A stretch of DNA of 64,000 nt from Botrimarina mediterranea (lineage in GTDB: Bacteria; Planctomycetota; Planctomycetia; Pirellulales; Lacipirellulaceae): assembly GCF_007753265.1 (NCBI RefSeq), contig NZ_CP036349.1, positions 1,459,363 to 1,523,362 of the forward strand, written 5' to 3'. Each line of letters starts with the position of its first letter. Position 1 is the first letter of the stretch. The notes beneath the pieces are model-generated. The model searched no databases and was not told the origin of the DNA. It saw only the letters and a list, made by a program, of their open reading frames with translations. Shown one piece after another: positions 19,391-34,199 of this stretch. A program made the translations under genes and the position numbers.

Positions 19391-19460
19391 CCTTTGCGCC
19401 TCGGCGGCTTTGCGTGAGGCTACGCTGGTTGACTCACGCAAAGGCGCCGAGGCGCAAAGG
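19391..19460. repeat. Inverted repeat, CTTTGCG/CGCAAAG word family
   Basis: Arms 19391-19418 and 19433-19460 pair almost perfectly over 28 bp. Each arm contains variations of CTTTGCG joined to CCTCGGCG. The right arm ends 10 bp before the start of the DUF423 gene and is adjacent to its ribosome binding site. Confidence 0.75.
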
Positions 19461-19470
19461 AAACCGAAGG

Positions 19471-20100
19471 ATGTCGAAGTTGTTGGCGGCGGCGGGACTG
19501 CTGGGGGCGACGGCCGTAGGGCTGGGCGCTTACGCGGCGCATGGGCTCGATGACGCGCTCGCGGGCTTCGGCTATGCGGGCGATGAGCTAACGCACCGCG
19601 TCGATAACTTCGTGACGGCTTCGCGCTACCAATTGACGACCGCCGCGGCCGTGCTGGCGATCGCGCTGGCCGGCGCCGGGCGGCCGCTGCTGGCGAAGGC
19701 GGCCTGGCTGCTGGTGGCGGGGGTCGTCGTTTTCTCGGGGCTGCTCTACGTGCTGGCGTTCGTTGGCGACGGCATGCGCTGGCTCGGCGCGATCGTCCTG
19801 CTCGGCGGCTTAGCGATGATCGTCGGCTGGCTGCTGGCGGGGTTCGCCGCATTCACGCCCAGCAAACCTTCGGGATCAACCGAGTCCCGCGACCTCGCCG
19901 CCGAGTTGAATCGCTTGCAAGAAGTCATCAGCCATCAGCAGCAACTGGTGAATGACCTCAACGAAGCCGTCACCGCGGCGCGCGATGAGGTCGATGCAAC
20001 GGCGCGGCGTCAGCACGGCGTCGAGCTGACGGTCCGTCGCTTGGTGGACCTGCAAACAGCGGCCGAGGACTTGCCCGACGAGAAGCCGCCGCATTATTGA
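19471..20100 (+). CDS. DUF423-family membrane protein with C-terminal coiled coil
   Basis: 209 residues. The first ~125 are a DUF423 (YgdD/TMEM256-like) membrane domain: a conserved GAYAAHGL near the N-terminus, four hydrophobic segments, and the GDGMRWLGAIVLLGGLAMIVGWLL block typical of the family's end. DUF423 proteins usually stop there at about 120-130 residues. Here ~80 more follow as a coiled coil (AAELNRLQEVISHQQQLVND), which resembles the SlyX type in pattern. The start ATG at 19471 follows GAAGG closely. The function of DUF423 is unknown; I do not assign one. Confidence 0.75.
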   Translation: MSKLLAAAGLLGATAVGLGAYAAHGLDDALAGFGYAGDELTHRVDNFVTASRYQLTTAAAVLAIALAGAGRPLLAKAAWLLVAGVVVFSGLLYVLAFVGDGMRWLGAIVLLGGLAMIVGWLLAGFAAFTPSKPSGSTESRDLAAELNRLQEVISHQQQLVNDLNEAVTAARDEVDATARRQHGVELTVRRLVDLQTAAEDLPDEKPPHY

Positions 20101-20102
20101 AA

Positions 20103-20222
20103 GCGGTGGGTTACAACCGACCCTATGAACTGCCGGCGCCGCGATCGACCGAATACTTGTAGGGTGGGTCATGACCCACCGTTTACCGGGATATGTCGAG
20201 CGGTGGGTTGTTACCCACCCTA
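20103..20222. repeat. Inverted repeats, GGTGGGT/ACCCACC word family
   Basis: Three units: a degenerate one at ~20103-20125, a perfect 18-bp palindrome at 20163-20180 (GGTGGGTCA-TGACCCACC), and a hairpin at 20202-20218 (GGTGGGT-TGT-TACCCACC). They fill the spacer between convergent genes and may terminate both. The last bases touch the methyltransferase stop. Confidence 0.7.
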
Positions 20223-20957
20223 CGGAGCTGCGTTAGCCCAAGCTTTCAAATCGACTTCTTCCAGTGGTGAATCGTCGCGCGCGAAGAACAGCACGTGTTG
20301 CCAGGGTAGCTCGTCGAACTGGCCGACGAGCTTGTAGCCGTTGGCCTCGAACTCTTTGAGGCACTGCGCCTGTGTCATCTTGTGCAGCGGCTTGATGGGG
20401 ACGGCGGGGTCTTCGGCGCGGAACTCGACTAGCGCGACGCGTCCCTCGGGCCGGAGGCTCTCACGCATCTTGGCGAGCATCTCTGCGGGGTGAGAGAACT
20501 CGTGGTACACGTCCACGAGCAGCACGAGGTCCACCTCTCCCACTGGCAGACGCGGGTCGTTGACCTTCCCCTTGATGGTCTTGATGTTGGGGACGCTCCG
20601 CGCCTCGGCCCGCTCCTTGAGCATCTGCAGCATCTCGCGCTGGATATCGACCGCAAGGATTTTCCCTTTCGGGCCGACCTGCTCCGCCAGCGCCAGCGAG
20701 TAGAAGCCGTTGCCGCAACCGAGGTCGCAGACGGTTTGGCCGGGCCGGATGTCGAGGGCGGCGAGCAGCTTGGCGGGCTCTTCCTCACGCTCGCGCGACT
20801 CACGCACTAGCCACGGCGCGCCGAGGTAGTGCATCGTCTGCGCGATCGGCCTGCCGAGGTACTCGTCGCGGCCACGCTCGGGCCGCTGGGCTTCGGCGTT
20901 GCTAAAGAGGATGGAACCACAAAGGAACAAAGGAACGAAGTATCGGCTCGCCTTCAT
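20220..20957 (-). CDS. Class I SAM-dependent methyltransferase-like protein with signal peptide
   Basis: 245 residues. Residues 1-24 form a signal peptide (SRYFVPLFLCGSILFSNAEA). The rest is a class I methyltransferase fold: motif I VCDLGCGNGFYSLALAE, motif II acidic end LAVDIQREML, and LVLLVDVYHEF in the motif IV place. Export is odd because S-adenosylmethionine is cytoplasmic; the protein could be exported with a different activity, or the hydrophobic start could act as an anchor. The hydrophobic core of the signal is encoded by one arm of an intergenic inverted repeat (20917-20996), so this start may have been acquired secondarily. Start ATG at 20957 is preceded by AAGGGG. Substrate unknown. 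Confidence 0.8.
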   Translation of the reverse strand: MKASRYFVPLFLCGSILFSNAEAQRPERGRDEYLGRPIAQTMHYLGAPWLVRESREREEEPAKLLAALDIRPGQTVCDLGCGNGFYSLALAEQVGPKGKILAVDIQREMLQMLKERAEARSVPNIKTIKGKVNDPRLPVGEVDLVLLVDVYHEFSHPAEMLAKMRESLRPEGRVALVEFRAEDPAVPIKPLHKMTQAQCLKEFEANGYKLVGQFDELPWQHVLFFARDDSPLEEVDLKAWANAAP

Positions 20958-20996
20958 GCCCCTTGTTCCTTCGTTCCTTTGCGGTTCATTCTTCAT
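20917..20996. repeat. Inverted repeat, AAGGAACGA word family, overlapping a gene start
   Basis: The left arm (about 20917-20940) and right arm (about 20959-20996) are built from AAGGAAC/GTTCCTT words with GGAACCAC or GCGGTTC at the outer ends. The left arm lies inside the signal-peptide codons of the minus-strand methyltransferase; the right arm lies in its upstream region. Confidence 0.75.
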
Positions 20997-21092
20997 AGTC
21001 ACTACTTTACCACACCGCTCAAGTTGGCGAGGGCGGGCGAGCAGGGCATAATCGGGCGAATCTTTGGGACCTCTCCTCGCCTGGACGCCGCC

Positions 21093-22385
21093 ATGATTCG
21101 CTTGCTGAGTTTGCTATTGGTCGCTGGCTTTGCCGTTCGTTCCGTAGCGGCGGACGAGGTCGTCGAGTGGGTCGATGCTCAGACGCCCTCGCTGGTGGAG
21201 TTCTACAAGGAGTTGCACGCGGCGCCGGAGCTGTCGCTCGAAGAGCACAAGACGGCCGCTAAGATCGCCGACGCCTGGGAAGCGGCCGGGTACACGGTCA
21301 CGCGCGGCGTTGGCGGGACGGGCGTCGTCGCGGTGCTCGAGAACGGCGACGGGCCGACCGTGATGCTCCGCACCGACCTCGACGGTCTGCCGGTCGTTGA
21401 GCAGACGGGGCTCGACTACGCCTCGACGGTCCGCACGACCGACAAGCGAGGCGCCGTGGTGGGCGTCATGCACGCCTGTGGGCACGACGTCCATATGACC
21501 AACTTGGTGGGCGTGTCGCGTTGCCTCACCGAAAACAAGAACTTATGGAAGGGAACGCTCGTCTGTATCGCCCAGCCCGCCGAGGAGCTCGGCGCGGGCG
21601 CGGAGGCGATGCTCGCCGACGGCCTGTTCGCACGCTTCCCGCGGCCTGATTACGCCATCGCGTTGCACGCCGCGAACGACCTGGAGGCCGGCAAGGTGAG
21701 CACGTGCCCGGGCTTCTTCGGCGCCAACGTCGATTCGGTCGACATCACCGTCCGCGGCAAAGGGGGACACGGCGCGGCGCCGCACACGGCGATCGACCCC
21801 GTGGTGATCGCGGCGAGGCTGGTGCTCGACTTGCAGACGATCGTGTCGCGCGAGTTGAAGCCGACCGAGCCGGCGGTCATCACGGTCGGCTCGATCCACG
21901 GCGGCACAAAGCACAACGTCATCGGCGACGACGTGAAGCTACAGCTCACAGTGCGCACCTACTCCGCCGACATCCGCAAGCAGATCGCCGAGGCGATCGA
22001 GCGCAAGGCGAAGGCCGCCGCCGCGAGCGCCGATGCGCCCGACCCGGAGATTGTCTACAGCGAGGGGACGCCGTCACTGTACAACGACCCGGACCTGACG
22101 ACGCGCGTCGATGGCGTGCTCCGCAAGACGCTCGGCGACGGCTCGGTCAACAAGGCCGAGCCGATGATGGGCGCCGAGGACTTCAGCCGCTACGGCAAGG
22201 CGGGCGTGCCGATCTGCATGTTCCGCCTGGGGACGATCAGCAAAGAACGCCTCGACGCCTGGAAGGCGGCCGGCGAGACGCCGCCGTCGATGCACTCGTC
22301 CCTCTACTGGCCGAACCCCGAGCCGACGCTGCGCACGGGGGTACAAGCGATGACGGCGATCGTGCTGGACTTGATGCCGCGGTAG
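21093..22385 (+). CDS. M20D-family amidohydrolase (hippurate/IAA-amino acid hydrolase-like), exported
   Basis: 430 residues. A metallo-amidohydrolase that cleaves an acyl-amino acid or related amide. A signal peptide is clear (LLSLLLVAGFAVRSVAADE). Metal ligands are visible in HACGHDVHM and QPAEELGAGA; GKGGHGAAPHTAIDP opens the dimerisation domain, and MMGAEDFSRYG near the C-terminus supplies the last ligand region. Length is typical once the signal peptide is included. Start ATG at 21093 is chosen because the signal peptide follows directly; the frame is open farther upstream through a repeat. The exact substrate cannot be told from sequence. No operon partner: neighbours are on the other strand. 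Confidence 0.9.
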   Translation: MIRLLSLLLVAGFAVRSVAADEVVEWVDAQTPSLVEFYKELHAAPELSLEEHKTAAKIADAWEAAGYTVTRGVGGTGVVAVLENGDGPTVMLRTDLDGLPVVEQTGLDYASTVRTTDKRGAVVGVMHACGHDVHMTNLVGVSRCLTENKNLWKGTLVCIAQPAEELGAGAEAMLADGLFARFPRPDYAIALHAANDLEAGKVSTCPGFFGANVDSVDITVRGKGGHGAAPHTAIDPVVIAARLVLDLQTIVSRELKPTEPAVITVGSIHGGTKHNVIGDDVKLQLTVRTYSADIRKQIAEAIERKAKAAAASADAPDPEIVYSEGTPSLYNDPDLTTRVDGVLRKTLGDGSVNKAEPMMGAEDFSRYGKAGVPICMFRLGTISKERLDAWKAAGETPPSMHSSLYWPNPEPTLRTGVQAMTAIVLDLMPR

Positions 22386-22414
22386 TGTCTTAACTTGGAA
22401 GTACGCGGCAATTG

Positions 22415-22503
22415 TTAACCACGGAGGCACAGACGGCGCCGAGGGACGGCGCCGAGGAACTTTTCTCTGTGCGTCCTCTGTTTTCTCAGTGCCTCAGTGG
22501 TTA
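22415..22503. repeat. Inverted repeat, CCAC-GAGGCACAGA word family
   Basis: The arms TTAACCACGGAGGCACAGA and TCAGTGCCTCAGTGGTTAA close an imperfect hairpin of about 90 bp. The inner part holds a second palindrome (GGCGCCGAGGGACGGCGCCG) and TCTCTGTGCG / CCTCTGTTTTCTCAG words. It lies between the convergent amidohydrolase and yihY genes and may act as a two-way terminator (a T-run follows at 22504). Confidence 0.75.
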
Positions 22504-22523
22504 ATTTTTTCTAGAACGACCTT

Positions 22524-23426
22524 CTATTCCATGACTTTGGCGATGCGTACGGCGCGGCTCTTGGGCTGTATGTCGCGGCCGCGGCGGCGGGCGTAGACCT
22601 CGGTCGCTTCGGCGCCGAAGAGCAGGATCATCGCTGAGTAATAGACCCAAGCGAACACGGCGGCCAGCGACGCCGCGGCGCCGCCGAGCTGGGCGCCCGG
22701 CGGGCTGAGGACGAAGAATTGCTGGATGGCGATGCGGCCGACCAGGAACAGTGCGGTCGTGATCAGCGCGCCGATGAACGTGTCACGCCAAGTGACGTGG
22801 GCGTCGGGGAGCACCTTGAAGACCACGGCGAAGACGATGAAGGCCACGAGGGACTGCACCGCGTAGTTGATCCAGGCCGCTGGGAGGGGATCGACGCCGG
22901 CCAGCTCGTTCAGTTGGTCGCCGAGGTACGCGATGGCGCCGGAAACCGTCATCGAGACCAGCAGCAAGACGCCCAGCCCCAGCACCAAGGCGAACGAGAC
23001 GGCCCGCTTCCGCACCAAGTAACGGACTTGCGACCGATCGGGGTCGGGCCTGACCGCCCAAACCACGTTGAGCGCCGTCTGCAAAGCGCCCATCAGACCG
23101 GTGACGGCGAGCAGCACGCCGGCGACGCTGAGCGTCACTTTCCACCAGGCGCCCTCCGTTTGGCGGCTGCGCTGGATCATCGCGGCGATGCTATCGACAG
23201 CCGCTTCGTCGCCGATGAGCTGGGTCGCCTGCTCTTCGAGGACTTCGCCGGCTTTCTCTTCGGCGACCTGCGAGTCGTAGGCGAGCGACAGTCCGGCCGT
23301 CACCACCATCATCAGCAGGTAGAGCAGCGGCGGCAGCGCGAAGACCGTGTAGTACGAAATCGCCGCGGCCAGCGTCGTGCACTGGTCCGCGGCGAATTCG
23401 GTGAAGACCTGCCGGAAGTAGCTCAT
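22524..23426 (-). CDS. YihY/BrkB-family inner membrane protein
   Basis: 300 residues with six hydrophobic helices. The N-terminal AISYYTVFALPPLLYLL is the family's most conserved part, and the C-terminal AAASLAAVFAWVYYSAMILLFGAEATEVY is equally diagnostic. Members were once called ribonuclease BN, a label not supported for the family as a whole; a transport or envelope role is more likely but unproven. A loop of ~55 residues after the first helix is rich in Glu and Gln (VAEEKAGEVLEEQA). I start at the ATG at 23426, just before the conserved start, rather than at 23480. There is no clear ribosome binding site for either. Confidence 0.88.
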   Translation of the reverse strand: MSYFRQVFTEFAADQCTTLAAAISYYTVFALPPLLYLLMMVVTAGLSLAYDSQVAEEKAGEVLEEQATQLIGDEAAVDSIAAMIQRSRQTEGAWWKVTLSVAGVLLAVTGLMGALQTALNVVWAVRPDPDRSQVRYLVRKRAVSFALVLGLGVLLLVSMTVSGAIAYLGDQLNELAGVDPLPAAWINYAVQSLVAFIVFAVVFKVLPDAHVTWRDTFIGALITTALFLVGRIAIQQFFVLSPPGAQLGGAAASLAAVFAWVYYSAMILLFGAEATEVYARRRGRDIQPKSRAVRIAKVME

Positions 23427-23506
23427 GACAATAGCTGGGCGGTTGAGGCTCCGTGGGCGGAGCGCCATTCTACCCAACAACCGCCGGCCCGACTCCGCGC
23501 AACGCT

Positions 23507-24277
23507 CTACTTCTCGCCGAGCAAGCGGGCGATCGGCTCTTCGATGGCGTCAGCCCACAGCTTGTAGCCGTGCTCGTTCGGGTGGAGCAGGTCGGGCATG
23601 ACGCTCTTGGGGAGCGTGCCGTCGTCGTCGAGGAAGACGTCGTTGATGTCGAGGAACTCGACGTTGTCACGCTCGCCAAGCCCCGCGATCCGCTCGTTGA
23701 CGTCGTCGTTGATCTGGCGGAGTTCGTCGTCGGGCTTCTCGCCGCGGGCGAAGACCGCCAGCAGCAGCACCTTACTCTCGGGCGCCAGTTCGAGCAGGCG
23801 ATCGACGACCATCTCAACGCCCTTGGCGGTGGCGCCGGGGTCGCCCTTGCGATGGCCCGTGTTGTTGGTGCCGATCATCACGACGAACAACTCGGGCTCG
23901 AGACCGGCGATCTCGTTGTTGTCTTTCCCGGCCTCGCCCATGCCGAGCCGCCAGAGGACATGCTCGGTGCGGTCACCGCTGAAGCCGATGTTGAAGGCGC
24001 CGCGCGGGGCGTACCGCTCTTCCCAGAGCTGCTTGCCGCCATTCTCCCAGCCGTGGGTGATCGAGTCGCCGACGAAGACCAGCCGGACTTCCTTATCGGA
24101 ATCGAGCAGCCGCTTCTTAGCGTCGAGCTTCTCGTCGTGCCGGTTACGCCACCAACGGTCGCGGAGGCGATGGTCCGGTGTTGTGGCGAGCTTCATGCCC
24201 TCGGTAGGCGTATCTTTGGCGAAACCTACCGAAGCCGATCCTAGAACCATCGCAACGCAGAAAGCGATCTTGAGCAT
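23507..24277 (-). CDS. Exported SGNH/GDSL-family hydrolase
   Basis: 256 residues. An esterase or acetylhydrolase of the SGNH fold, close to the platelet-activating-factor acetylhydrolase type. A signal peptide is visible (KIAFCVAMVLGSASVGFA). The blocks are in order: block I VFVGDSITHGW with the nucleophile Ser, block II Gly in NIGFSGDRTEHVLWRLG, block III VVMIGTNNTGH, and block V LLHPNEHGY with the catalytic Asp/His region (PDLLHPNEHGY). In planctomycetes such proteins often act on sulfated or acetylated polysaccharides, but nothing here shows the substrate. Start ATG at 24277 is set by the signal peptide. A single gene flanked by unrelated neighbours. Confidence 0.9.
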   Translation of the reverse strand: MLKIAFCVAMVLGSASVGFAKDTPTEGMKLATTPDHRLRDRWWRNRHDEKLDAKKRLLDSDKEVRLVFVGDSITHGWENGGKQLWEERYAPRGAFNIGFSGDRTEHVLWRLGMGEAGKDNNEIAGLEPELFVVMIGTNNTGHRKGDPGATAKGVEMVVDRLLELAPESKVLLLAVFARGEKPDDELRQINDDVNERIAGLGERDNVEFLDINDVFLDDDGTLPKSVMPDLLHPNEHGYKLWADAIEEPIARLLGEK

Positions 24278-24377
24278 GACAATCGTGTTGGTAATCGAAG
24301 GAGGAGGATAGGGAATCGACAAGTTGAAGAGCAATGATAACCAGAACCGCGTCGATCCGGTTAATCCTGTCTAAATC

Positions 24378-25604
24378 CTAACGTCCCTTCATCCGCGGGT
24401 CGAAGGCGTCGCGGAGGCCGTCGCCGAGAAAGTTGAGCGCGAACAGCGTGGCGCCAATGGCGACGCTCGGAAAGACGATCAGCCACCAGTAGATCTTTAC
24501 AGGCGTGATGACCTGGATACCCTCGTTCGCCAAGAGGCCCCAGGAGACATCGGGCGGCTCGACGCCCAGGCCGAGGAACGACAGGAAGGCTTCGAAGAGG
24601 ATCACACGTGGGATGGTGAGCGTCAGGTACACCAGCACGATGCTGAGCAGGTTCGGCACGAGGTGGCGGAAGACGATCGCTGTCTGCGACACGCCCAGCG
24701 AGCGGGCCGCCTCGACGTACTGCTCGTTGCGGAGCGAGACGACTTGGCCGCGGACGACGCGGGCCATCGTCAGCCAATAAATGGCGCCGACGACGAAGTA
24801 GAAGATCGTGATCCGGTCGATCCCGTACCCGGCGAGGCGCTCTTTGACCGACTCTTCGCTGAGGATCGAGATGATGAAGATCACCAGGAAGACGAACGGG
24901 ATGCTGTAGAGCACATCCACGATGCGCATCATCAGGTCATCGACCCAGCCGCCAGCGTAACCCGAGACGGCGCCGTAGGTGACGCCGATCACCAGCGACA
25001 CCAGCGTCGCCACGAAGCCGACGATCAGCGACACCCGCGCGCCCCAGAAGATGCGGCTCAACAGATCGCGGCCGAGCTTGTCACGGCCGCAAACGCTGTT
25101 GAGCTCCCACTCGCCAAAGATCGCGTAACGGGCGCAGACCATCAGACGGGCGAGCGGACCGAGCTTCGGGAAGCCGGCGCTGGCGTAGGGCCGCTGCACC
25201 TGCGAATCCACCGCCGCGCGGGCGAGCAGCACTTGGCGGGCCTTCTCCTCCACTTCGTCGTCGGTCGCGTCGGTCGAACGGCGAGTCGCCGAGTACTCGC
25301 CGAGGGCTTCTCTGAGCTTGGACTTCGCTTCGGCGATCGGTTCCGCAAGCGTTTCAATCTGCGCCGCATCGAACTTAAACGCCTCCACCAGCGGTGGCCA
25401 CACCACCGGCCCCGTGAGCATTAGCGGCGTCTCATCCCGGTCGGGCGGCGCCAGCGGCAAGAGCGGCGTAAAGAACGCGAGCAGCACCACCGCCACGAGC
25501 GTCCCCAGCGACGCCATCGCCGCCCAGCTCTTCTTCAGCCGACGCCAAGCGTCCTGGGTGAGGGAGACGCCGGTTTCCGTTGGTTGGGTGGGCGTGGGGG
25601 TCAT
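24378..25604 (-). CDS. Peptide/nickel-type ABC transporter permease, OppC/DppC-like
   Basis: 408 residues, an inner-membrane channel subunit of an oligopeptide importer. The first TM (AWRRLKKSWAAMASLGTLVAVVLLAFF) is the family start, followed by an unusually long periplasmic insert of ~120 residues rich in Glu/Ala (EPIAEAKSKLREALGEY). Then VCGRDKLGRDLLSRIFWGARVSL, typical of OppC, and the cytoplasmic EAA loop (EAARSLGVSQTAIVFRHLVPN). The end is GDGLRDAFDPRMKGR, exact family style. The long insert makes the protein about 100 residues longer than E. coli OppC. It follows oppB after a 109-bp spacer filled with an inverted repeat. Confidence 0.93.
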   Translation of the reverse strand: MTPTPTQPTETGVSLTQDAWRRLKKSWAAMASLGTLVAVVLLAFFTPLLPLAPPDRDETPLMLTGPVVWPPLVEAFKFDAAQIETLAEPIAEAKSKLREALGEYSATRRSTDATDDEVEEKARQVLLARAAVDSQVQRPYASAGFPKLGPLARLMVCARYAIFGEWELNSVCGRDKLGRDLLSRIFWGARVSLIVGFVATLVSLVIGVTYGAVSGYAGGWVDDLMMRIVDVLYSIPFVFLVIFIISILSEESVKERLAGYGIDRITIFYFVVGAIYWLTMARVVRGQVVSLRNEQYVEAARSLGVSQTAIVFRHLVPNLLSIVLVYLTLTIPRVILFEAFLSFLGLGVEPPDVSWGLLANEGIQVITPVKIYWWLIVFPSVAIGATLFALNFLGDGLRDAFDPRMKGR

Positions 25605-25616: not shown

Positions 25617-25712
25617 GCGAAGTGGGAAGTTGGAAGTGCGAAGTGGGAATAGGCCCACGCTGAACGCGCCAGCGCTTCCTTCCCACTTCCGACTTCCCAC
25701 TTCCTACTTCCG
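25617..25712. repeat. Inverted repeat, AAGTGGGAA word family, inside the opp operon
   Basis: The left arm (about 25617-25650) repeats GAAGTGGGAA / GAAGTTGGAAGTGCG; the right arm (about 25677-25712) repeats TTCCCACTTCC / GACTTCCCACTTCC. The arms pair imperfectly because the words can slip. It fills the spacer between two co-directional permease genes. Confidence 0.75.
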
Positions 25713-26628: not shown

Positions 26629-28574
26629 GGCGTCGCGGCCTCCGTGCGGCGGGGCTTCATCGTGATCTCACGCACGGGCTTGGAAGCCATGAAGTCGTTC
26701 GGCCCCGAGGCGTCGCGGCGGATCGACAGCGTCCACAGCGGGTGGCGGTCTTCGAGGTTGTTGTACCAACCGTAGACGTACGGCTTGAGCATGCTCCGCG
26801 ACACGTAGTAGTAGATCGGCATGACGGGGCCCTCCCGCATCAGGATGCGTTCGGCGTCGGCGAGCATCTCGAGACGCTTGTCGGCGTCGGGCTCGGCCTT
26901 GGCGTCCTGGATCAGTTTGTCGAACTCGGCGTTGCTCCAGCCGGTCGAGTTGTTCTCCCCGCCGGTGACCCACAGGTCGAGCATCGAGTTGGGGTCGAGG
27001 TAGTCGCCGATCCACGCCCGCCGGACGACGTCATACTTCTGCTGCCGTTGGCTCGAGAGATAGCTCCCCCACTCTTCGTTGCGAGTGGCGACATCGATCC
27101 CCAGGTTGCGGCGCCACTGCTTGCGGATCAGCTCGGCGATCGTCTGGTGCTGCTGCTCGTAGTTGTAGAGGATCTCGATCTTGGGGAACCCGGTTCCGTC
27201 GGGGTAGCCGGCTTCGGCGAGCAATTCCTTCGCTCTTGTGATGTTCATCGGCTCGCACTCGGGCGCCTTGTATTCCGGCAGCCCCGGGGGCGTCATCGAT
27301 AGCGCCGGCAATTCGCCCGCACAAGCGGTGGTGACGATCTCTTCGCGGTCGATCGCCAGCATCAACGCCTGGCGGACCCGGACATCGTCGAACGGCTTGC
27401 GCGACGTGTTGAACGTGTAGAAGTAGGTGCCGAACTGCGCGTCGGGGTTGAAATCGGGACGCGGTGGATCGGCCTCGAACAGCTCACGGGCGATCAGCGG
27501 CGTCACCTTGGTGATCCAATCGACCTTGCCGGTCTCGTAGAGATTGAACGATGTCGTGAGCGCCTGCACCGCTAGGGCGTCGATTGTTTCCAAGGCGACG
27601 TTGTCGCGGTTCCAGTAGTGCTCGTTCTTCCGCAGTCGGATGCGGTCGCGGATGCGGTGGAACTCGAGCTTGAACGGGCCGTTGGTGACGATGTTCTCGA
27701 CCTCGGTCCATTGGCCCGGGCCGTGCGTCTCGACACACTTCTGGTTGACCGGCGCCAGCGGGTAGAAGCCCAGCAGGTTGAGCCAGTAGGGTGTCGGCGA
27801 CTCCAGCACCGTCTCGACCGTGTAGTCGTCGATCGCGCGGAAGCCAACCTCGCTGAAGTCGAGCAGCACCTGCCGGCACGGCTCGGCGCCCTCCGGCGCG
27901 GTGGTGGGGACGTTGTCGCCTACGCGGAACAACCGCTCCTCGCCATCGATCGAAACGACGAACGTGCGGTGATCGACAAACTTCATCGGATCGTCGAGCA
28001 TCTCTTGATCGACGCCCTCATCCGTCTCGATACGCACCAGCTCGCCGCGGAGCACCGCGCCACGGGCGAACGGCAGGGCGCCGTCCGGTCGCTCGACCAG
28101 TTCTACTTCGACCTTGTCGCCGGGCTCGACGCCGCGGGCCGCGCGGCTGTAGCGGCGGCCGTTCTTCAGGTACCAAGCTTGGTAGGCGTATTCCGCGAAC
28201 GTCTGCGGGTCGAGGAACCGCCGCATGCTGTAGACCATGTCATGAGCGTTCAGCGGCGATCCGTCGCTCCACTTCGCGTCGTGGCGGAGGTGGAACGTGT
28301 AGGTGCGGCCGTCCTCGGAGATGTCCCAGCTCTCGGCGACGCCGGGGATCGGCTCGCGGTCCTTCGGGCCGAGACGCACGAGCCCTTCGTAGAGCTCGTC
28401 GATGATCCGTCCCTCGGGCTGCCCCGTGACGACGGCCGGGTCGAGCGACTCGACCTCGGTGTCGTTGTTGAACGTGAAGTCCGCCGGCGGGAGCTGGCCC
28501 TCTTTCACCACAGCGATAATGCCGCCGACGAGCAGCACGAAGATCGCGATGGCAAGGGCGAGGCGTGGGGGCAT
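26625..28574 (-). CDS. Peptide ABC transporter substrate-binding protein (OppA/DppA family)
   Basis: 649 residues, longer than the usual 500-550. A single hydrophobic segment at the N-terminus (LALAIAIFVLLVGGIIAVV) without a lipobox suggests a membrane-tethered periplasmic receptor. Family blocks are clear: TEVESLDPAVVTGQPEGRI, then GVAESWDISEDGRTYTFHL with DAKWSDGSPLNAHD, and near the end WIGDYLDPNSMLDLW. A ~100-residue insert after YQAWYLKNGRR may explain the length. First gene of the binding protein-oppB-oppC operon; the region upstream is almost entirely one large inverted repeat, which must contain or overlap its promoter. Confidence 0.93.
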   Translation of the reverse strand: MPPRLALAIAIFVLLVGGIIAVVKEGQLPPADFTFNNDTEVESLDPAVVTGQPEGRIIDELYEGLVRLGPKDREPIPGVAESWDISEDGRTYTFHLRHDAKWSDGSPLNAHDMVYSMRRFLDPQTFAEYAYQAWYLKNGRRYSRAARGVEPGDKVEVELVERPDGALPFARGAVLRGELVRIETDEGVDQEMLDDPMKFVDHRTFVVSIDGEERLFRVGDNVPTTAPEGAEPCRQVLLDFSEVGFRAIDDYTVETVLESPTPYWLNLLGFYPLAPVNQKCVETHGPGQWTEVENIVTNGPFKLEFHRIRDRIRLRKNEHYWNRDNVALETIDALAVQALTTSFNLYETGKVDWITKVTPLIARELFEADPPRPDFNPDAQFGTYFYTFNTSRKPFDDVRVRQALMLAIDREEIVTTACAGELPALSMTPPGLPEYKAPECEPMNITRAKELLAEAGYPDGTGFPKIEILYNYEQQHQTIAELIRKQWRRNLGIDVATRNEEWGSYLSSQRQQKYDVVRRAWIGDYLDPNSMLDLWVTGGENNSTGWSNAEFDKLIQDAKAEPDADKRLEMLADAERILMREGPVMPIYYYVSRSMLKPYVYGWYNNLEDRHPLWTLSIRRDASGPNDFMASKPVREITMKPRRTEAATP

Positions 28575-28589
28575 GGACTTAAGCTTAGG

Positions 28590-28775
28590 AAGCTAACGGC
28601 GGAGACGCCAGACACTGGGGAGTGACGAAACTCGAATGACGAATGACGAAGCACGAATGACGAACCTGTCGGAGGGCGCTAGCAGCCACCGGCAGGTTCG
28701 TCATTCGTCATTCGGATTTCGTCATTCTCACGACTCCCCTTGGCGCTCCTGGCGTCTTGGCGGTTCTCTGTACGT
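28590..28775. repeat. Large compound inverted repeat spanning a divergent promoter region
   Basis: The left half (28590-28671) reads gcGGAGACGCCAGA words, then GAGT, then repeated GAATGACGAA words, then ACCTGTCGG; the right half (28690-28775) reads the inverse in the same order. The arms are about 80 bp. Nearly the whole spacer between the divergent binding-protein and RNA-methyltransferase genes is this repeat. Confidence 0.8.
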
Positions 28776-28777
28776 CT

Positions 28778-29272
28778 ATGGAGCACACCCGCCACCGCCC
28801 GCCGCGCGAACTGACCCAGCCCCGTGAGCTGGTGGTCGTGTGCGCGCCGTTGCGCAGCAATGTCAATCTGTCGCGCATCGCCCGCGCGGCTGGGTGCTGT
28901 GGCGTGACGCGGATCATCGCCACGGGCCGGCCGATGAAGCTCGACCCCGAGGTCGCCCGCGACGCGGCCGACACGATCACGCTCGAGAACCGCCGCTCGC
29001 TCGAGCCGGTGCTCAAGGAGCTACGCAAAGAGGGTTATCGCCTCGTGGGCCTCGAACAGACGACCAACTCGCACGACATCCACCACTACAACTTCCCAAG
29101 GCGGACAGCCTTGGTGATCGGCAACGAGCGCACCGGCCTCACCGACGAAGAGCTGGCCCTGCTCGACGAGGCGATCGAGATCCCCGTCTGGGGCCTGCCG
29201 CACAGCTACAACGCCGCCACGGCGACGTGCATGGCGCTGTACGAGTACTGCCGGCAGTGGCCTGAGGGGTGA
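28778..29272 (+). CDS. SpoU/TrmH-family RNA 2'-O-methyltransferase
   Basis: 164 residues, a minimal SPOUT (alpha/beta-knot) methyltransferase acting on tRNA or rRNA ribose. Motif 1 is NVNLSRIARAAGCCGV with the conserved Asn and Arg. Motif 2 is ALVIGNERTGLTDEELALLD, and motif 3 is IPVWGLPHSYNAATATCMALYEYCRQ, where the Asn-containing PHSYNAATA matches the family's LNVSVA position. There is no N-terminal RNA-binding extension. I start at the ATG at 28778; an in-frame TTG at 28757 lies inside a repeat arm. Spacer upstream is the compound repeat. The exact target nucleotide is not readable; a TrmL- or TrmH-like role is plausible. Confidence 0.85.
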   Translation: MEHTRHRPPRELTQPRELVVVCAPLRSNVNLSRIARAAGCCGVTRIIATGRPMKLDPEVARDAADTITLENRRSLEPVLKELRKEGYRLVGLEQTTNSHDIHHYNFPRRTALVIGNERTGLTDEELALLDEAIEIPVWGLPHSYNAATATCMALYEYCRQWPEG

Positions 29273-29278
29273 CAGAGT

Positions 29279-29437
29279 TGAACCACGAAGGAACGAAGGA
29301 ACAAAGGAATGAGACGAAATAAGAGAGCCCGCGAATGACGCGAATAAGCACGAATGAAGAGTAGATCATTCGCCTTTATTCGCGTCATTCGCGGGCGCTT
29401 ACCTCTTTCATTGTTCCTTAGTTCCTTCGCGGTTCCA
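29279..29437. repeat. Nested inverted repeats, AAGGAACGA and GAATGACGCGAAT word families
   Basis: The outer arms (29279-29307, GAACCACGAAGGAACG type; 29411-29437, GTTCCTTAGTTCCTTCGCGG type) enclose inner arms (29326-29358, CCCGCGAATGACGCGAAT; 29366-29398, ATTCGCGTCATTCGCGGG). It lies between convergent genes, and the right outer arm contains the stop and last codons of mtaB. Confidence 0.8.
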
Positions 29438-30698
29438 TTCCTTCAATCTGACCGCTAGCAACGGGTCCGGCGATCACGTCAACGAACTGGGCGAGGGGAT
29501 TGCCCGTTGCCGATAGTTCGACCGGCGCGTAGCGGCAGGACGAGCCGACGTAGCGGTCTTCGCCGACTCGGCCCTCGACCAGGACTCGCAGTGGCATGCC
29601 GGTTAGTGAGCGGTAGTAGTCGTCTCGCAGCTCCGCTTCCAATTCGGCTAGTCGCTGCATCCGTTCTTGTTTGACGTGCTTCTCGATTTGATGGGGCATG
29701 TCCCATGCCGGGGTGCCACGGCGGCGGCTGAAGGGGAAGGCGTGGATCTTTGAAAAACCCGCTTCGCGGCAGGCGGCGAGGGTTTCTTCGAACTCCGCGT
29801 CGGTCTCGCCGGGGAAGCCGACGATCACGTCGGTTGTGATGGCGGGGCGGTCGAGGCGCTCGCGCAGCAAATGGCAGCGGTCGAGAAACCGCCGGCTGCC
29901 CCAACGCCGCCGCATCCGCCGCAAGACGCCGTCGGAGCCTGATTGCATCGAGAGGTGCAAATGCGGGCAGACCTTCTGCGGGTTCTCCGCCATCACGTCG
30001 ATGAGTTCGTGCGTAACTTCGGTGGCTTCGATACTAGAGAGACGCAGCCTGAAGTCGCCGGGGATTTCTGCTAACCGCCGAAGGAGGTCCGACAGTCGGA
30101 CCCACGCCGACTTGTCGCGAAGGTTCTCACGATTGAAATCGACGCCGTAGTGGCCGAGATGGATCCCTGTCAGCACGATCTCACGCCGGCCGTGGGCGAC
30201 AAGGTTCTCGACTTCGTTGACGATTTCCTCGAGCGGCCGGCTGGCGAGGTTCGGCCTCACCGAAGGGATGATGCAGAAGCTGCACCGCAGCAGGCAGCCG
30301 TCTTGCACCTTTACATAAGCGCGCTTGCGGGTGCCGATGCCGGTGACGCCGGTCGGGATGTCGGTGACGCCGAAGCGGCCCAAGAGGTCGGGGAGCTCAC
30401 GCTTGTCGGTGAGCACCTCGGTGACGCCCGGCAGCGCCTTCACTTCCTCGGGCGCCCGCGTCGCGTAGCAGCCCATGACGACAAGCTTCGCCGACGGGTT
30501 CTCCCGCGCCAGTCGCCGAATCACCTGCCGGCTCTTCGAGTCCCCCTCGGCGGTGACGGTGCACGTGTTGACGACGCACAAGTCCGCCGCCTCGCCCTCC
30601 GCCGTGTCTTGCCAGCCGATCGACGCGAGCCCTTCGCGGAGGTACTCGGTCTCGTACTGGTTGACTTTGCAACCGAGGGTGTGGGTCTTGAGCTTCAA
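29418..30698 (-). CDS. mtaB: tRNA threonylcarbamoyladenosine methylthiotransferase, MtaB type
   Basis: 426 residues. A radical SAM enzyme that adds a methylthio group to t6A37 of tRNAs decoding ANN codons. The N-terminal MTTase domain shows its three Cys in TLGCKVNQYE, VVNTCTVTAEGD and VMGCYATRAP. The radical SAM cluster motif follows as DGCLLRCSFCIIPSVR. TTDVIVGFPGETDAEFEET is the usual later block, and a TRAM-like tail (PLRVLVEGRV) ends it. The TLGCKVNQ start and compact length favour MtaB over MiaB. The start ATG at 30698 opens directly into the motif. The last codons (GMEPRRN stop) are encoded inside a repeat arm. Confidence 0.93.
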   Translation of the reverse strand: MKLKTHTLGCKVNQYETEYLREGLASIGWQDTAEGEAADLCVVNTCTVTAEGDSKSRQVIRRLARENPSAKLVVMGCYATRAPEEVKALPGVTEVLTDKRELPDLLGRFGVTDIPTGVTGIGTRKRAYVKVQDGCLLRCSFCIIPSVRPNLASRPLEEIVNEVENLVAHGRREIVLTGIHLGHYGVDFNRENLRDKSAWVRLSDLLRRLAEIPGDFRLRLSSIEATEVTHELIDVMAENPQKVCPHLHLSMQSGSDGVLRRMRRRWGSRRFLDRCHLLRERLDRPAITTDVIVGFPGETDAEFEETLAACREAGFSKIHAFPFSRRRGTPAWDMPHQIEKHVKQERMQRLAELEAELRDDYYRSLTGMPLRVLVEGRVGEDRYVGSSCRYAPVELSATGNPLAQFVDVIAGPVASGQIEGMEPRRN

Positions 30699-30701
30699 AA
30701 T

Positions 30702-30788
30702 TGCGGACTGGGGATTGCGGGATGCAGATTACTAGCAGGACGGGCTCGACGCGAAGGAATTCGCGATACGAAATCCCCAATCCGCAAT
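30702..30788. repeat. Inverted repeat, GGATTGCGGA word family
   Basis: ATTGCGGACTGGGGATT (30702-30718) is matched by AATCCCCAATCCGCAAT (about 30771-30787). GGATTGCGGG and GATACGAAATCCCC variants lie between. It fills the spacer between clpS and mtaB. Confidence 0.75.
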
Positions 30789-30792
30789 CAAC

Positions 30793-31155
30793 CTACTCAG
30801 TTTCTTCGATCGACGCTGACATCGACCCCTGGCTCGATGCGATCGACTCGTCCTTGCCGTAGGCGTGGATTTGGTCGCGTTTTAGTTCGGCATGCTCTTT
30901 GGTGGTGGTGAGGACGACGACCTTGCCCTCGCTGTCGACGGTCTGGGCGAGCTTGAAGCCAGTGGTCTCGGAATGGCCGAACAGCTCTTTGAGCATTCGG
31001 ATGACGTATTCGTACGAATGGTCTTCGTCGTTCCAGAGGATGACGTGGTAGCGGGGGATCTTGTACTTCTTCTTTTCCTTCTGCGGCGGCCGCTCGGGGC
31101 GCACAACGGTCGCAGTCCCGTCGCCGGGGTCGTCTTCGAAGGAGGGCTCATCCAT
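30793..31155 (-). CDS. clpS: ATP-dependent Clp protease adaptor ClpS
   Basis: 120 residues. ClpS brings N-degron substrates to ClpA/ClpC-ClpP. The N-terminus is a flexible acidic/Pro tail (DEPSFEDDPGDG, then KEKKKYKIPRYHVILWNDEDHS), and the core block YHVILWNDEDHSYEYVIRML includes the hydrophobic pocket and DD/DE acidic residue that bind the substrate N-terminus. AQTVDSEGKVVVLTTTKEHAELKRDQI matches the rest of the fold. Start ATG at 31155 gives family length. The frame is open to 31377 but that part overlaps the divergent peptidase gene. A separate clpA/C gene is not in view. Confidence 0.92.
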   Translation of the reverse strand: MDEPSFEDDPGDGTATVVRPERPPQKEKKKYKIPRYHVILWNDEDHSYEYVIRMLKELFGHSETTGFKLAQTVDSEGKVVVLTTTKEHAELKRDQIHAYGKDESIASSQGSMSASIEETE

Positions 31156-31272
31156 GGGCGGGTCGGTGGTTAGACGGGGGGTTGAGAAGTATATTCGCCG
31201 GCATGGCGGCTGGCCAACGAGGGTCCAGCCGCCGCGACGACACCGCCCCATCGAGACGCCCCCACGCTCGCC

Positions 31273-32643
31273 ATGAGCCAAACCGACACTTCTGCCGTCC
31301 CCTCCGAGTCGGCCCAACACGAAGCGGCCCTGTTCGAGCTGCTGCGGATCCCCAGCGTCAGCGCCGATTCGCGGCACAAGCCCGATGTCGCCCGGGCCGC
31401 CGACTGGGTCGAAGCCCGGCTGCGTGGCATGGGGCTGGCCGTCGAGAGGCTTGCGACCCCCGGGGCGCCGATCTTATTCGCTCAGTCGCCGCCTGTGCCA
31501 GGCAAGCCCGTAGCGCTCATCTACGGGCACTACGACGTGCAGCCGCCCGACCCGCTCGACGAGTGGCAGTCGCCGCCGTTCGAACCGACGGTGCGTGACG
31601 GCAACGTCTACGCTCGTGGCGCCACCGACGACAAGGGGCAGATGCTGACGCACGTGTTGGGCGTCGAATCATTGCTTAAGGCCGAAGACAAGCTCCCGAT
31701 CCAAGTGAAGTTCCTCATCGAGGGGGAGGAGGAAGTTGGCAGCGAGCACCTCGAAGCCGCTGTTGGCGCCAATCGCGACAAACTCGCTTGCGACGTCGTG
31801 GTGGTGAGCGACAGCTCGCAGTTCGCCCCCGGCGTTCCGGCGATCACCTACGGCCTACGCGGCATCGCTTACTACGAGCTCTTCGTCGAAGGCCCCAAGC
31901 AAGACCTGCACTCGGGCTCGTTCGGTGGCGGTGTGACCAATCCCGTCAATACGCTGGCGAAGCTGCTGGCGGCGCTCGTGGATAGCGACGGCCGCATTCA
32001 GGTCCCCGGTTTCTACGACAATGTCGAGCCGCTCACCGACCGCGAGCGCGCCGAGTTCGCGCGGCTGCCCTTCGACGAAGAGCGGTTCAAGAAGCAGCTC
32101 AATGTGGATGGCGTCACGGGCGAGAAGGGCTTCACCACGCTCGAACGTCGCTGGGCCCGCCCGACGTGCGACGTCAACGGCATCTGGGGCGGTTACCAGG
32201 GCGAGGGCGCGAAGACCGTGCTCCCGGCGCGTGCTGGCGCCAAGGTGAGTTTCCGACTCGTACCGAACCAAGACCCCGAGAAGATCACCGCGGGACTGCG
32301 GAAATTGCTCGAACCGCTCGTCCCCCCCGGCGCCAAACTAACCATCAAGCCGCACCACGGCGCCCCGGGCGTCAAGTTCTCACTCGAAAGCCCCTACATG
32401 GCCGCTGCCACCGCCGCGATCGAAGCCGGCTTCGGCGCCAAGCCCGTCTTCATGCGCGAAGGCGGCTCGATCCCGATTGTCGGCACGTTTGCTCGGGAGC
32501 TAGATGCGGATGTGCTACTACTCGGCTGGGGACTGGACGACGACAACACTCATAGCCCCAACGAGAAATTCAACCTCGGTGACTTCCACCGAGGAATCAA
32601 GGCGTCAGCCGCGCTTTGGACACACTTAGCTAATTGTGGATAG
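31273..32643 (+). CDS. M20-family dipeptidase (ArgE/DapE/ACY1/CPG2 superfamily)
   Basis: 456 residues, a cytoplasmic two-metal peptidase that cleaves dipeptides or related short substrates. Metal ligands: GHYDVQPPDP, RGATDDKGQML, and the Glu pair in IEGEEEVGSEH. The dimerisation domain follows (FVEGPKQDLHSGSFGG). Later REGGSIPIVGTF and the final HSPNEKFNLGDF block with the last His ligand are typical of the dipeptidase branch. No signal peptide. Start ATG at 31273; the clpS gene is divergent with 117 bp between. The spacer to serS is a repeat. Exact substrate unknown. Confidence 0.93.
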   Translation: MSQTDTSAVPSESAQHEAALFELLRIPSVSADSRHKPDVARAADWVEARLRGMGLAVERLATPGAPILFAQSPPVPGKPVALIYGHYDVQPPDPLDEWQSPPFEPTVRDGNVYARGATDDKGQMLTHVLGVESLLKAEDKLPIQVKFLIEGEEEVGSEHLEAAVGANRDKLACDVVVVSDSSQFAPGVPAITYGLRGIAYYELFVEGPKQDLHSGSFGGGVTNPVNTLAKLLAALVDSDGRIQVPGFYDNVEPLTDRERAEFARLPFDEERFKKQLNVDGVTGEKGFTTLERRWARPTCDVNGIWGGYQGEGAKTVLPARAGAKVSFRLVPNQDPEKITAGLRKLLEPLVPPGAKLTIKPHHGAPGVKFSLESPYMAAATAAIEAGFGAKPVFMREGGSIPIVGTFARELDADVLLLGWGLDDDNTHSPNEKFNLGDFHRGIKASAALWTHLANCG

Positions 32644-32710
32644 CGGATTGCCAGCCGAACACGCGTCGCATTAAATCCAATCCGCATTCCGCAATCCGAA
32701 TTCCGCAATC
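32644..32710. repeat. Degenerate inverted repeat, GGATTGCGGA word family (copy 2)
   Basis: GCGGATTGCC on the left and AATCCGCATTCCGCAATCCG on the right are variations on GGATTGCGGAAT, the same word as at 30702-30788. The right arm is longer and more regular; the left arm is partly eroded. It lies just upstream of the serS start. Confidence 0.65.
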
Positions 32711-32715
32711 TCATC

Positions 32716-34008
32716 ATGCTCGACAAACGCTTCGTTCTCGAAAACGCCGAACTCGTCCAACAGAACTGCGTCGATCGCGGCGTGAAGGCCGATGTTTCGC
32801 GGTTTGTGGAGCTCGAGACGCAGCGCCGCACGCTGTTGCAGGAGGCCGAGGACCTTAATCGGCAGGCGAACGAGGTCAGCAAGTCGATCGGCAAAGCCAA
32901 GGACGACGCCGAGCGCGAGGCCCGCAAGGAAGAGGGCCGCCAGCTCCGCGAAGCGAAGGACGCCAAGCAGTCCGAGGTCGATCGCGTCGGCCTCGAGGCG
33001 GACCGCATCCTCCGCGGGCTGCCGAACATGACCCACCCCGAATCGCCGCGCGGCGACGAGGCCGCCAGCCACGAACTGCGCAAGGGGGAGTCGAAGCCGC
33101 CCAAGTTCAACTTCAAGCCGCTCGATCATCTGGCGCTCGCCGAGCAGCATGACCTGATCGACTTCGAGGGGGGCAGCCGCGTCTCTGGCAACGGCTTCTA
33201 CTACCTGCGGAACGAAGCGGTGCTGCTGGAGTTTGCGCTGCAGCGTTACGCGCTCGACCGGCTGATGCGCGAAGGCTTCACACCGACGATGACGCCGGAC
33301 CTGGCGCGCAACGAGATCGTGCAGGGCATCGGCTTCATCCCGCGTGGCCCGGAGACGCAGATCTATTCGATCGAGAACTCCGACCTGAACCTCGTCGCCA
33401 CGGCGGAGATCACCCTCGGCGGGCTTCATGCCGGCCAGGTGCTCGACGAATCGCAGCTGCCGATCAAACTCGCCGGCGTGAGCCACTGCTTCCGCACCGA
33501 GGCGGGCGCGGCCGGTCGGGCGGGGCGTGGCCTGTACCGCGTCCATCAGTTCACGAAGGTCGAGATGTTCGCCTTCACGACGCCCGATCAGAGCGAGGAT
33601 ATGCACAACCTGTTCCTCGAACTGGAGTGCGAAATCTTCGATGGGCTGGGCGTTCCGTTCCGGGTGCTCGACATCGCGTCGGGCGACCTCGGCGGGCCGG
33701 CCTACCGCAAGTTCGACCTCGAAGCCTGGATGCCCGGCCGCGGCCAGGGGGGCGAGTACGGCGAGGTCACCAGCACCAGCAACTGCACCGACTACCAATC
33801 GCGGCGGCTCGACATCCGCTACAAGAAGCCCGGCGAGAAGGGGACACACTTCGTCCACACGCTCAACGGCACCGCCGTGGCCTGCGGCCGGGCGATGATC
33901 GCGATCCTCGAGAACTGCCAACAAGCGGACGGTTCGATCCTCGTGCCCGAGGTGCTGCGGGTGTACGTCGGCAAAGACCGCATCGGCGCACCGGACGACG
34001 CCGAGTAA
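32716..34008 (+). CDS. serS: Seryl-tRNA synthetase
   Basis: 430 residues, family length. Residues ~30-105 form the long antiparallel coiled-coil arm that grips tRNA-Ser (ARKEEGRQLREAKDAKQSE). The class II catalytic core follows: motif 2 with CFRTEAGAAGRAGRGLYRVH and HQFTKVEMF, and motif 3 with GTAVACGRAMIAILENCQQ. TSTSNCTDYQSRR and GGEYGEVTS are the usual Ser-AMP site blocks. It charges tRNA-Ser (and tRNA-Sec if present). The start ATG at 32716 opens MLDKRFVLENAE, typical of the family. Flanked by repeats on both sides. Confidence 0.97.
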   Translation: MLDKRFVLENAELVQQNCVDRGVKADVSRFVELETQRRTLLQEAEDLNRQANEVSKSIGKAKDDAEREARKEEGRQLREAKDAKQSEVDRVGLEADRILRGLPNMTHPESPRGDEAASHELRKGESKPPKFNFKPLDHLALAEQHDLIDFEGGSRVSGNGFYYLRNEAVLLEFALQRYALDRLMREGFTPTMTPDLARNEIVQGIGFIPRGPETQIYSIENSDLNLVATAEITLGGLHAGQVLDESQLPIKLAGVSHCFRTEAGAAGRAGRGLYRVHQFTKVEMFAFTTPDQSEDMHNLFLELECEIFDGLGVPFRVLDIASGDLGGPAYRKFDLEAWMPGRGQGGEYGEVTSTSNCTDYQSRRLDIRYKKPGEKGTHFVHTLNGTAVACGRAMIAILENCQQADGSILVPEVLRVYVGKDRIGAPDDAE

Positions 34009-34031
34009 CGCGGTGCTGTACCGACCAAAGT

Positions 34032-34199
34032 AGGGTCCGCTGTGCGGACCGTAGTTACGAGTCAGCAGTACGCAGTACGCGACCGCCTCTACCAAGATTA
34101 TGGAGAGCCCACGACGCGCGTCGTGGGCTCTCCATGTAATTAGTGGTGAGCGACCACTTAACGGTGGACCTGTCCCACGGTCCGCCCAGCGGACCCTAC
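34032..34199. repeat. Inverted repeat, GGGTCCGC word family, enclosing a terminator
   Basis: The outer arms 34032-34052 (AGGGTCCGCTGTGCGGACCGT) and 34179-34199 pair at 19 of 21 positions, and each arm is itself a short palindrome. They enclose the serS terminator palindrome and AGTACGCAGTACGC words. Confidence 0.75.
34100..34135 (+). terminator. Perfect 36-nt palindrome, probable serS terminator
   Basis: Eighteen bases pair perfectly with the next eighteen (ATGGAGAGCCCACGACGC and inverse). The stem would close with a small CGCG loop. It lies 90 bp after the serS stop. The T-tail is weak, so termination efficiency is uncertain. Confidence 0.6.

Follow-up and report, generated by a model that had tools for sequence, protein, structure and literature searches.

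In Xanthomonas, degenerate heptamer arrays of the GGGAATC type, with fixed and free positions, form 70 and 75 convergent pairs in two strains, and the accessible part of that account describes them as mostly intergenic and variable in length, with 83% of the repeats in the same gene context, as generally unassociated with mobile elements, and with stress on G-quadruplexes (PMC4692102). Palindromes flank RAYT and TIRYT transposase genes (PMC3733652), and TAACTGA direct repeats occur in Beggiatoaceae, Cyanobacteria and Bacteroidetes, where horizontal transfer is suggested, with no mechanism given in the accessible text (PMC4679880). The subject here is a related class of elements in Botrimarina mediterranea (Planctomycetota), namely inverted arrays of short words in the spacers of a 64,000-nucleotide stretch, hereafter the window, at positions 1459363–1523362 of a 5.87 Mb genome in a single contig. 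Ten of these spacers had been singled out by an earlier sequence-only reading as imperfect inverted repeats. Miniature inverted-repeat transposable elements (MITEs) are likewise short, non-autonomous, present in high copy, nested and bounded by inverted ends.

The word elements share with the GGGAATC arrays their degenerate 7-bp units, convergent pairing and intergenic position, features that hold for the AAGTNGG and GAATGAC families (heptamers paired at 8 of 10 and 10 of 10 loci, respectively). In contrast to the one word per genome studied in Xanthomonas, as far as the accessible text goes, several nested words coexist here, one family is dispersed in blocks and one super-word crosses phyla. 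With the TAACTGA repeats they have in common that mostly intergenic heptamer arrays link distant lineages, whereas that word is a different one and its arrays are direct, with one inverted case in the tabulated genome (PMC4679880, as accessible). In the P6b region of the Nostoc tRNA-Leu intron, too, degenerate heptanucleotide repeats pair into a hairpin with varying copy number and inserts, but the part of that paper at hand concerns one intron and RNA pairing (PMC3488679), unlike the dispersed spacer family considered here. Likeness to the GTAG-headed repetitive extragenic palindromes (REPs) that accompany RAYT/TIRYT genes (PMC3733652, PMC6006769, both as accessible) is confined to spacers 20103 and 34032 and to palindromes around three of this genome's own Y1 transposase matches; the word arms, in contrast, have little self-complementarity and, to the eye, no GTAG foot, and none was seen adjoining a Y1 gene. 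The MITE-like traits of the word elements are shortness, inverted ends, high copy and nesting, whereas no parent transposon or target-site duplication was identified. Among open-licence PMC papers no report naming these words was found. What the word class adds to the known paired heptamer arrays, of which it is a variant, is the coexistence of several vocabularies, nesting, dispersal in blocks and a super-word that crosses phyla.

The noted spacers mix two things: REP dimers and other palindromes, to which 20103, 34032 and some inner pieces belong, on the one hand, and pairs of inverted arrays of 7–9-bp words on the other. The explanation we favor, with confidence about evenly balanced, is that the latter are mobile and MITE-like, with a predicted protein reading their inverted word arrays, and that ordinary REP dimers are mixed in with them. 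Two kinds of small dispersed elements, often nested, would thus have accumulated in these spacers. The first would comprise REP dimers and palindromes like those around the Y1 (RAYT/TIRYT-like) genes of this genome. The second would comprise MITE-like word elements, in which a short loop is flanked by two arrays of some three to five words whose outer ends face away from it. A putative sequence-specific protein, either a transposase or a factor used by one, would read the fixed letters and ignore the spacer letters, and the inverted arrays would mark the two ends of the element or its subterminal sites. Copies would be pasted into spacers, the arrays would lengthen, shorten and reorder by slippage, and the hairpin would be a by-product of the same sites standing inverted. 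Both the binding of the words by a protein and the moving enzyme are predictions of this scheme.

Hairpin richness is a property of spacers across this genome, beyond the window. A census of 464 kb (the window plus 20 evenly spaced genome stretches) placed 64 inverted repeats of score 18 or more in spacers, a density of 788 per Mb of spacer, against 3 in coding DNA (7.8 per Mb) and 2 in mixed positions, while shuffled spacers longer than 60 bp gave none in five rounds. A wider sample at a lower threshold (550 kb, 9.4% of the genome) supplied 102 spacer hairpins for a tandem-periodicity test; 29 have tandem-periodic arms (p<0.05 versus shuffled arms), with a best lag of 7 or 8 in 20 of them, by a test that is imperfect in missing the window hairpin at 19391 (p 0.62) and admitting some that are not word-like, e.g., window 35124. 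The 65 non-periodic hairpins (p>=0.2) are mostly REP-like palindromes. Relative to these, the 29 word arms fold more weakly on themselves (median -0.067 versus -0.186 kcal/mol per nt; Mann-Whitney 0.003) and are more purine-biased (2e-5). The word elements lie in tandem, convergent and divergent spacers in 16, 7 and 4 cases (n=27), with no clear bias toward gene starts; in the fold, purine and orientation comparisons one place, fetched as both L005 and L012 (L labels denote fetched loci), was set against itself. The word class would account for a sizeable part of the spacer hairpins of this genome.

The sequence-only reading had held that each family has its own words, and this is borne out for AAGTNGG, GAATGAC and GGATTGC. 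Three of the six words outside the REPs turn out to be variants of one super-word: as we read the letters, CTTTGCG (CGCAAAG), GAGGCACAGA (CACAGAG), AAGGAACGA (AACCACAAAGGAACGAAGG) and the outer word of 28590 (CGCCAAG), which the earlier reading had not listed, all appear to fit CRCNNAK. Such variants make up 19391 (placed by letters alone), 20917, 22415 and the outer hairpins of 29279 and 28590, most with AACC at the outer end, and an AACCAC array of this group consists of 7-bp words with 1–3-bp spacers and a period of 8–10. Counting overlapping matches and both arms of an element, three-word AACCAC arms match 32 times genome-wide (20 forward, 12 reverse), the 17-mer GAATGACGAATGACGAA of the GAATGACG family 43 times (22 and 21 per strand) and the three-word AAGTNGG array 18 times at 12 places. 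The common architecture that had been proposed, inverted word arrays in several multi-copy families, therefore stands, and none of the families tested is a single-copy terminator. In the 9.4% sample, GGAACRAAGGAAC is found at 6 places and GTAGGGTGGGT at 2 (backwards control 0 and 0), CGCAAAGGCGC at 13 (backwards control 2) and GTAGGGTCCGC at 9 (backwards control 0). Across 149 genomes of the phylum, own included, GAATGACG occurs in 4 (backwards control 4) and AAGTNGG in 5 (backwards control 3), and so both words seem close to lineage-specific.

What is conserved in the two word families examined in this way, AACCAC and AAGTNGG, is letters. The left arm of each element, entered once, was compared with its reversed right arm. 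Recognition of shape alone, or copying from arm to arm, would make all positions pair alike, and they do not. In the own AACCAC elements (n=21) the fixed word letters agree at 342 of 351 positions versus 33 of 63 for the spacer letters, and within the word position 5 agrees in 59 of 61 and position 4 in 32 of 61. The contrast recurs in another genome of the collection, G097 (n=13; 216/217 versus 12/29), and in elements from many phyla (n=58, among the matches listed; 919/947 versus 89/190), so that across the sets fixed letters agree at 97–100% and spacer letters at 41–52%, selection by letters or pairing inflating the former figure somewhat and leaving the contrast with free letters intact. 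The AAGTNGG elements, from the 8 of 10 fetched loci with a recognizable inverted repeat, give 160/162 for fixed letters versus 14/27 for the free one. Neither family thus behaves as a hairpin in which pairing is kept whatever the letters, and the earlier suggestion of recognition by shape rather than sequence is not supported in them.

Position 5 is uniform within elements, at 0.939 versus 0.573 shuffled in the own genome and 0.948 versus 0.517 among the listed many-phyla matches (0/1000 shuffles in both), and each element thus keeps one dialect at this position. Copies in one genome, too, often share a dialect: among the listed places, G066 uses CACGAAG, G097 CACGGAG (162 arms) and G130 mostly CACAGAG, with the own genome, G000, mixed. 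The AACCAC arrays further have a fixed polarity, in which partners face inwards with the AACC ends outside. This holds for 22 of 23 own arms and 14 of 18 in G097, with none outward in either. Among the matches listed, 65 of 92 arms at the many-phyla loci face inwards and 9 outwards, and in viral contigs 36 of 102 inwards and none outwards.

Whole elements have been copied. In one composite element a CGCAGAG hairpin encloses a CGCAAAG hairpin; the whole recurs as a block of 238–277 aligned bp at five sampled places (L007, L008 twice, L010 and L012) in both orientations, with pairwise identities of 83–95%, and the alignment ends at the block though 400 bp of flank were supplied; a sixth, partial copy at L022 has 64–179 bp in common at 80–89% identity. 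By eye, 15 of 17 G097 loci inspected carry a hairpin CGCCTTCGGCG and then GATG, flanking the words on one side or both. These blocks and outer hairpins mean that arrays can sit internal to larger units. Both the composite and the G097 families are discrete multi-copy blocks with inverted ends and no gene of their own, as MITEs are; for the other word families the evidence of this type is copy number. The word number and order vary, as in L263 (nine words on the left, three on the right) and in GAATGACG arms of differing unit order, which suggests slippage. Separately, a decayed Y1 transposase fragment directly adjoins one composite element (L005:1501-1659, the L012 region).

The pattern AACCACRRAGN{1,3}CACRRAGN{1,3}CACRRAG occurs in at least 118 stretches of a species-genome collection, where about 1 is expected at equal base use by our own arithmetic. 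The own phylum has it in 32 of 149 genomes, against none of the 149 for the unreversed complement and none for the backwards pattern. The bacteria listed belong to what we take to be Cyanobacteriota, Pseudomonadota, Bacteroidota, Acidobacteriota, Planctomycetota, Chloroflexota, Verrucomicrobiota, Spirochaetota, Cloacimonadota, Myxococcota, Gemmatimonadota, Desulfobacterota, Elusimicrobiota and Aminicenantes, and the archaea presumably to two lineages, Methanothrix and Ethanoperedens. Among the 80 matches listed, 71 are titled metagenome-assembled genomes, in which binning errors are possible, and 9 are not, including Sorangium cellulosum, Magnetospirillum, Pedobacter and Phormidium. The listed many-phyla loci hold 32 arms without a partner beside the 58 elements. 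When 20 patterns were run over these 80 loci, they matched only CRCNNAK variants, the TAGGGC and GAATTACG words (L189) and one REP word (L127, L189); the backwards control hit twice for CGCAGAG and once for GTAGGGTGGG. Two loci show clustered or concentric arrays, a Bacteroidales contig with ten clustered AACCAC arrays in two regularly spaced series (L179:5258-5791) and a Thermoanaerobaculales one with, by eye, three concentric word hairpins (CACAGAG, CACGAAG and CGCAGAT) in 640 bp (L133:6029-6668).

The pattern is also present in at least 120 stretches of viral contigs. By gene content, i.e., a portal protein (L426), tape-measure and virion proteins (L409) and polymerase and clamp-loader matches (L383), some of these are real phages. 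In these three, L433 and other viral contigs, unpaired AACCAC arrays stand just upstream of start codons, some contigs having several copies. When one element was searched against plasmids, 12 records (9 cyanobacterial) matched weakly over short stretches, at E 0.02 to 3, and a search of phage records with one element gave no match. A bolder reading, which we hold tentatively and at less than even confidence, is that tandem CRCNNAK words ending in AACC, each element or genome with its own dialect, mark a class of mobile elements common to numerous bacterial phyla, phages and some archaea; one putative DNA-binding protein family would read them, its specificity evolving with the dialect.

The other component of the spacers is of a known kind. 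The elements at 20159–20223 and 34030–34199 have the foot, the short self-complementary stem and the inverted dimer of the GTAG superfamily, the GTAG head of the former being as described in the accessible part of PMC3733652. The claim that these are not standard REPs was therefore mistaken for spacers 20103 (GGTGGGT) and 34032 (GGGTCCGC). The palindromes flanking RAYT and TIRYT genes have their counterpart here in palindrome families around 3 of the 5 own Y1 (RAYT-like) matches (L002, L003 and L004; not L001 and L005). A survey of Y1 loci covered 136, taken from this genome, from its family and from genomes rich in words (one gene entered twice, as L303 and L313), with the two or three best repeats listed per locus inspected, and 98 of the 136 have flanking inverted repeats. 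Word arrays lie outside another repeat pair at L002, where a CGCC(A/G)AG-type hairpin encloses the transposase unit, and at L039 and L310. Since the word arrays there are only outer ones, Y1 units sit inside word hairpins and do not use them. At L294:116-1781 a GTTTCC heptamer-like array forms the outer inverted repeat around a Y1 gene unit.

Several observations weigh against the favored explanation. The letter test covers two families, the elements of which were found by those letters or by pairing, and position 4 is uncoordinated within own elements (596 of 1000 shuffles equal it); it is coordinated in the listed many-phyla set (0.822 versus 0.558; 0/1000), where genomes differ in dialect. 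No autonomous word element or parent transposon was seen in the loci read, the composite flanks show no clear target-site duplication by eye, and the Y1 loci surveyed yielded no moving enzyme, a word array being the innermost listed repeat in 0 of 136. In both the composite and the G097 families other sequences lie outside the arrays, which may accordingly be passengers or binding sites instead of transposon ends. Inside word loops REPs are not enriched (1 of 50 in the random sample versus 1.2 expected), 19391, 25617 and parts of both 20917 and 32644 are common to the nearest relative, G001, and hence old, and 65 of 101 deduplicated arrays among those listed in phage contigs are unpaired. These last are the main support for the arrays being sites of a regulatory or RNA-binding protein, acting on DNA or RNA, kept for expression control and carried by other mobile elements, with pairing common and not required, an account we consider rather doubtful. 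Among the matches listed, an ATG that opens a frame of at least 60 aa lies no more than 22 nt downstream of 20 of the 65 unpaired phage arrays; the opposite side gives 8 of 65 (Fisher 0.018), and random positions give 10.2%. The TAACTGA arrays also precede start codons in Beggiatoaceae, according to the accessible part of PMC4679880, and the outer sequences differ between array families. However, nearly all own arms are paired, the word elements are spread over spacer types as given above, the 36 paired phage arms listed show such an ATG in 2 cases inward and 12 outward, departing from the unpaired pattern, and the listed many-phyla single arrays show it in 2 of 26, a figure with no separate control.

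A neutral process, in which heptamer slippage and hairpin template switching make and keep inverted arrays with no reader, would explain the varying number and order of words and the prevalent lag of 7 or 8, and among long simple repeats heptamers are the most frequent in most genomes surveyed, with slippage proposed (PMC4679880 and PMC4692102, as accessible). Template switching, however, predicts complementary spacers, and the low spacer and free-letter agreement between arms already weakens an account that also leaves fixed polarity and an AACCAC super-word in unrelated phyla unexpected; we think it unlikely. That all elements, the word ones included, are REP doublets forming hairpins (REPINs) or terminal inverted repeat (TIR) elements moved by Y1 (RAYT/TIRYT) transposases strikes us as quite improbable. 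In its favor are the GTAG REP dimers in 2 of the 10 spacers, the palindromes at 3 of 5 own Y1 matches and the presence of Y1 genes in 28 of 32 genomes with the AACCAC pattern versus 66 of 117 without (Fisher 0.0009, ignoring genome size, relatedness and assembly quality). Yet the Y1 transposase as mover of the word elements is unsupported across the 136 loci, the word arms fold on themselves less than the other arms, and four pattern genomes lack a Y1 match (G054, G108, G144 and G168), a weak point at completeness of 76–88%. Transcription terminators would be hairpins in spacers, and 7 of 27 word elements do lie between convergent genes, but the families are multi-copy, 4 of 27 lie between divergent genes and in the two families compared the word letters rather than stem pairing are conserved; we consider this extremely improbable.

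Turnover and nesting of the elements are visible in and around the window (Table 1). Nine of the ten noted spacers carry inverted repeats beyond chance in 300 dinucleotide shuffles; the exception is 32644, which has GGATTGC words and no convincing inverted repeat, 76 of the 300 shuffles equalling it. Spacer 28590 holds three hairpins one inside another and 29279 two.

Table 1. Inverted repeats and word arrays of the noted spacers, in window coordinates
Feature	Position	Evidence and remarks
Word hairpin, CGCAAAGGCGC / CTTTGCG family	19391..19460	z 16.7; CRCNNAK group by letters
GTAG-headed REP dimer, GTAGGGTGGGT ... ACCCACCCTAC	20159..20223	z 5.1, 1 shuffle equal; arms self-complementary
Word hairpin AACCACAAAGGAACAAAGGAACGAAG	20907..20994	z 6.5; overlaps 5' end of open reading frame 20220-20957 (-)
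Word hairpin AACCACGGAGGCACAGA ... CTCAGTGGTT	22417..22502	sequence; z 5.4, 1 shuffle equal
Word hairpin AAGTNGG	25619..25710	z 8.9
Outer word hairpin, CGCC(A/G)AG type	28595..28765	read from sequence
Middle word hairpin GAATGACGAATGACGAA, nested in outer	28620..28727	z 17.2 for spacer 28590
Innermost palindrome CCTGTCGGAGGGCGCTAGCAGCCACCGGCAGG	28665..28697	sequence
Outer word hairpin AACCACGAAGGAACGAAGGAACAAAGG	29280..29437	z 21.8 for spacer 29279
Inner hairpin GCCCGCGAATGACGCGAATAAGCACGAATGA	29324..29399	detected as separate inverted repeat
Word hairpin ATTGCGGACTGGGGATTGCGG	30700..30788	z 5.2
GGATTGC / GCAATCC words	32640..32711	z 0.5, inverted repeat not significant
GTAG-headed REP dimer, GTAGGGTCCGCTGTGCGGACCGT ... 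ACGGTCCGCCCAGCGGACCCTAC	34030..34199	z 17.7
Perfect palindrome ATGGAGAGCCCACGACGC / GCGTCGTGGGCTCTCCAT, 18-bp arms, inside REP dimer	34100..34135	detected inverted repeat

Parts of these elements recur elsewhere. The inner end CCTGTCGG of the innermost palindrome in 28590 is found in other GAATGACG elements, a hairpin resembling the inner one of 29279 lies inside the AACCAC hairpin at L266, with a related one at L260, and the perfect palindrome within the REP dimer of 34032 is related by eye to repeats around the L003 Y1 gene and to L011:19264-19339. Of the 32 genome matches to AACCAC arms, 26 were listed and 20 loci fetched, and among these 20 four loops hold a TGTGGGAGGGGTCTCC-type repeat by eye (L256, L258, L267 and L269), L269 being the single sample hit with a REP in the loop. 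Copies at orthologous spacers in relatives exist in part. In a comparison that leaves out spacer 20103, G001 keeps, with words altered, a diverged copy of 19391, the 25617 hairpin, one arm of 20917 and the GGATTGC words of 32644; it lacks 22415 (a 40-bp spacer there) and 34032. The 25617 hairpin is not in the G003 spacer, and the G007 spacer carries words related to those at 32644. Remnants of the 28590 outer hairpin are recognizable by eye in both G001 and G003. What fills its loop differs: the GAATGACG element in this genome, a TGTGGGAGGCGTCTCC repeat in G001, and neither of the two in G003.

The ten window genes between the hairpins have ordinary products: a methyltransferase, M20 peptidases, a peptide-transport permease and binding protein, a SpoU methylase, a radical-SAM protein, ClpS, seryl-tRNA synthetase and a DUF423/SlyX protein. 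An Rfam scan of the window matched a tRNA alone. An open frame at 34453–34992, uncalled by a simple gene model, is rich in Cys-Cys motifs, and G001 has a similar stretch. Elsewhere, one 1040-bp spacer contains five near-perfect palindromes with a common GTATA center (L098:12990-13444), and a separate family of 215–260 bp has long inverted ends GGATGTTGGTGATAGGGGGGATCGCAAGCGG around an inner hairpin (L013:3535-3763, L016:17373-17625, L018:2155-2412 and L018:12599-12813).

Paired short-word arrays are described for few genomes, as far as our literature searches showed. The comparison of word letters with spacer letters between arms offers a simple way to tell repeats read by sequence from those read by shape. 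One super-word across phyla, archaea and phages poses a testable question, namely which protein reads it, and whether it serves the movement of DNA or the control of genes.

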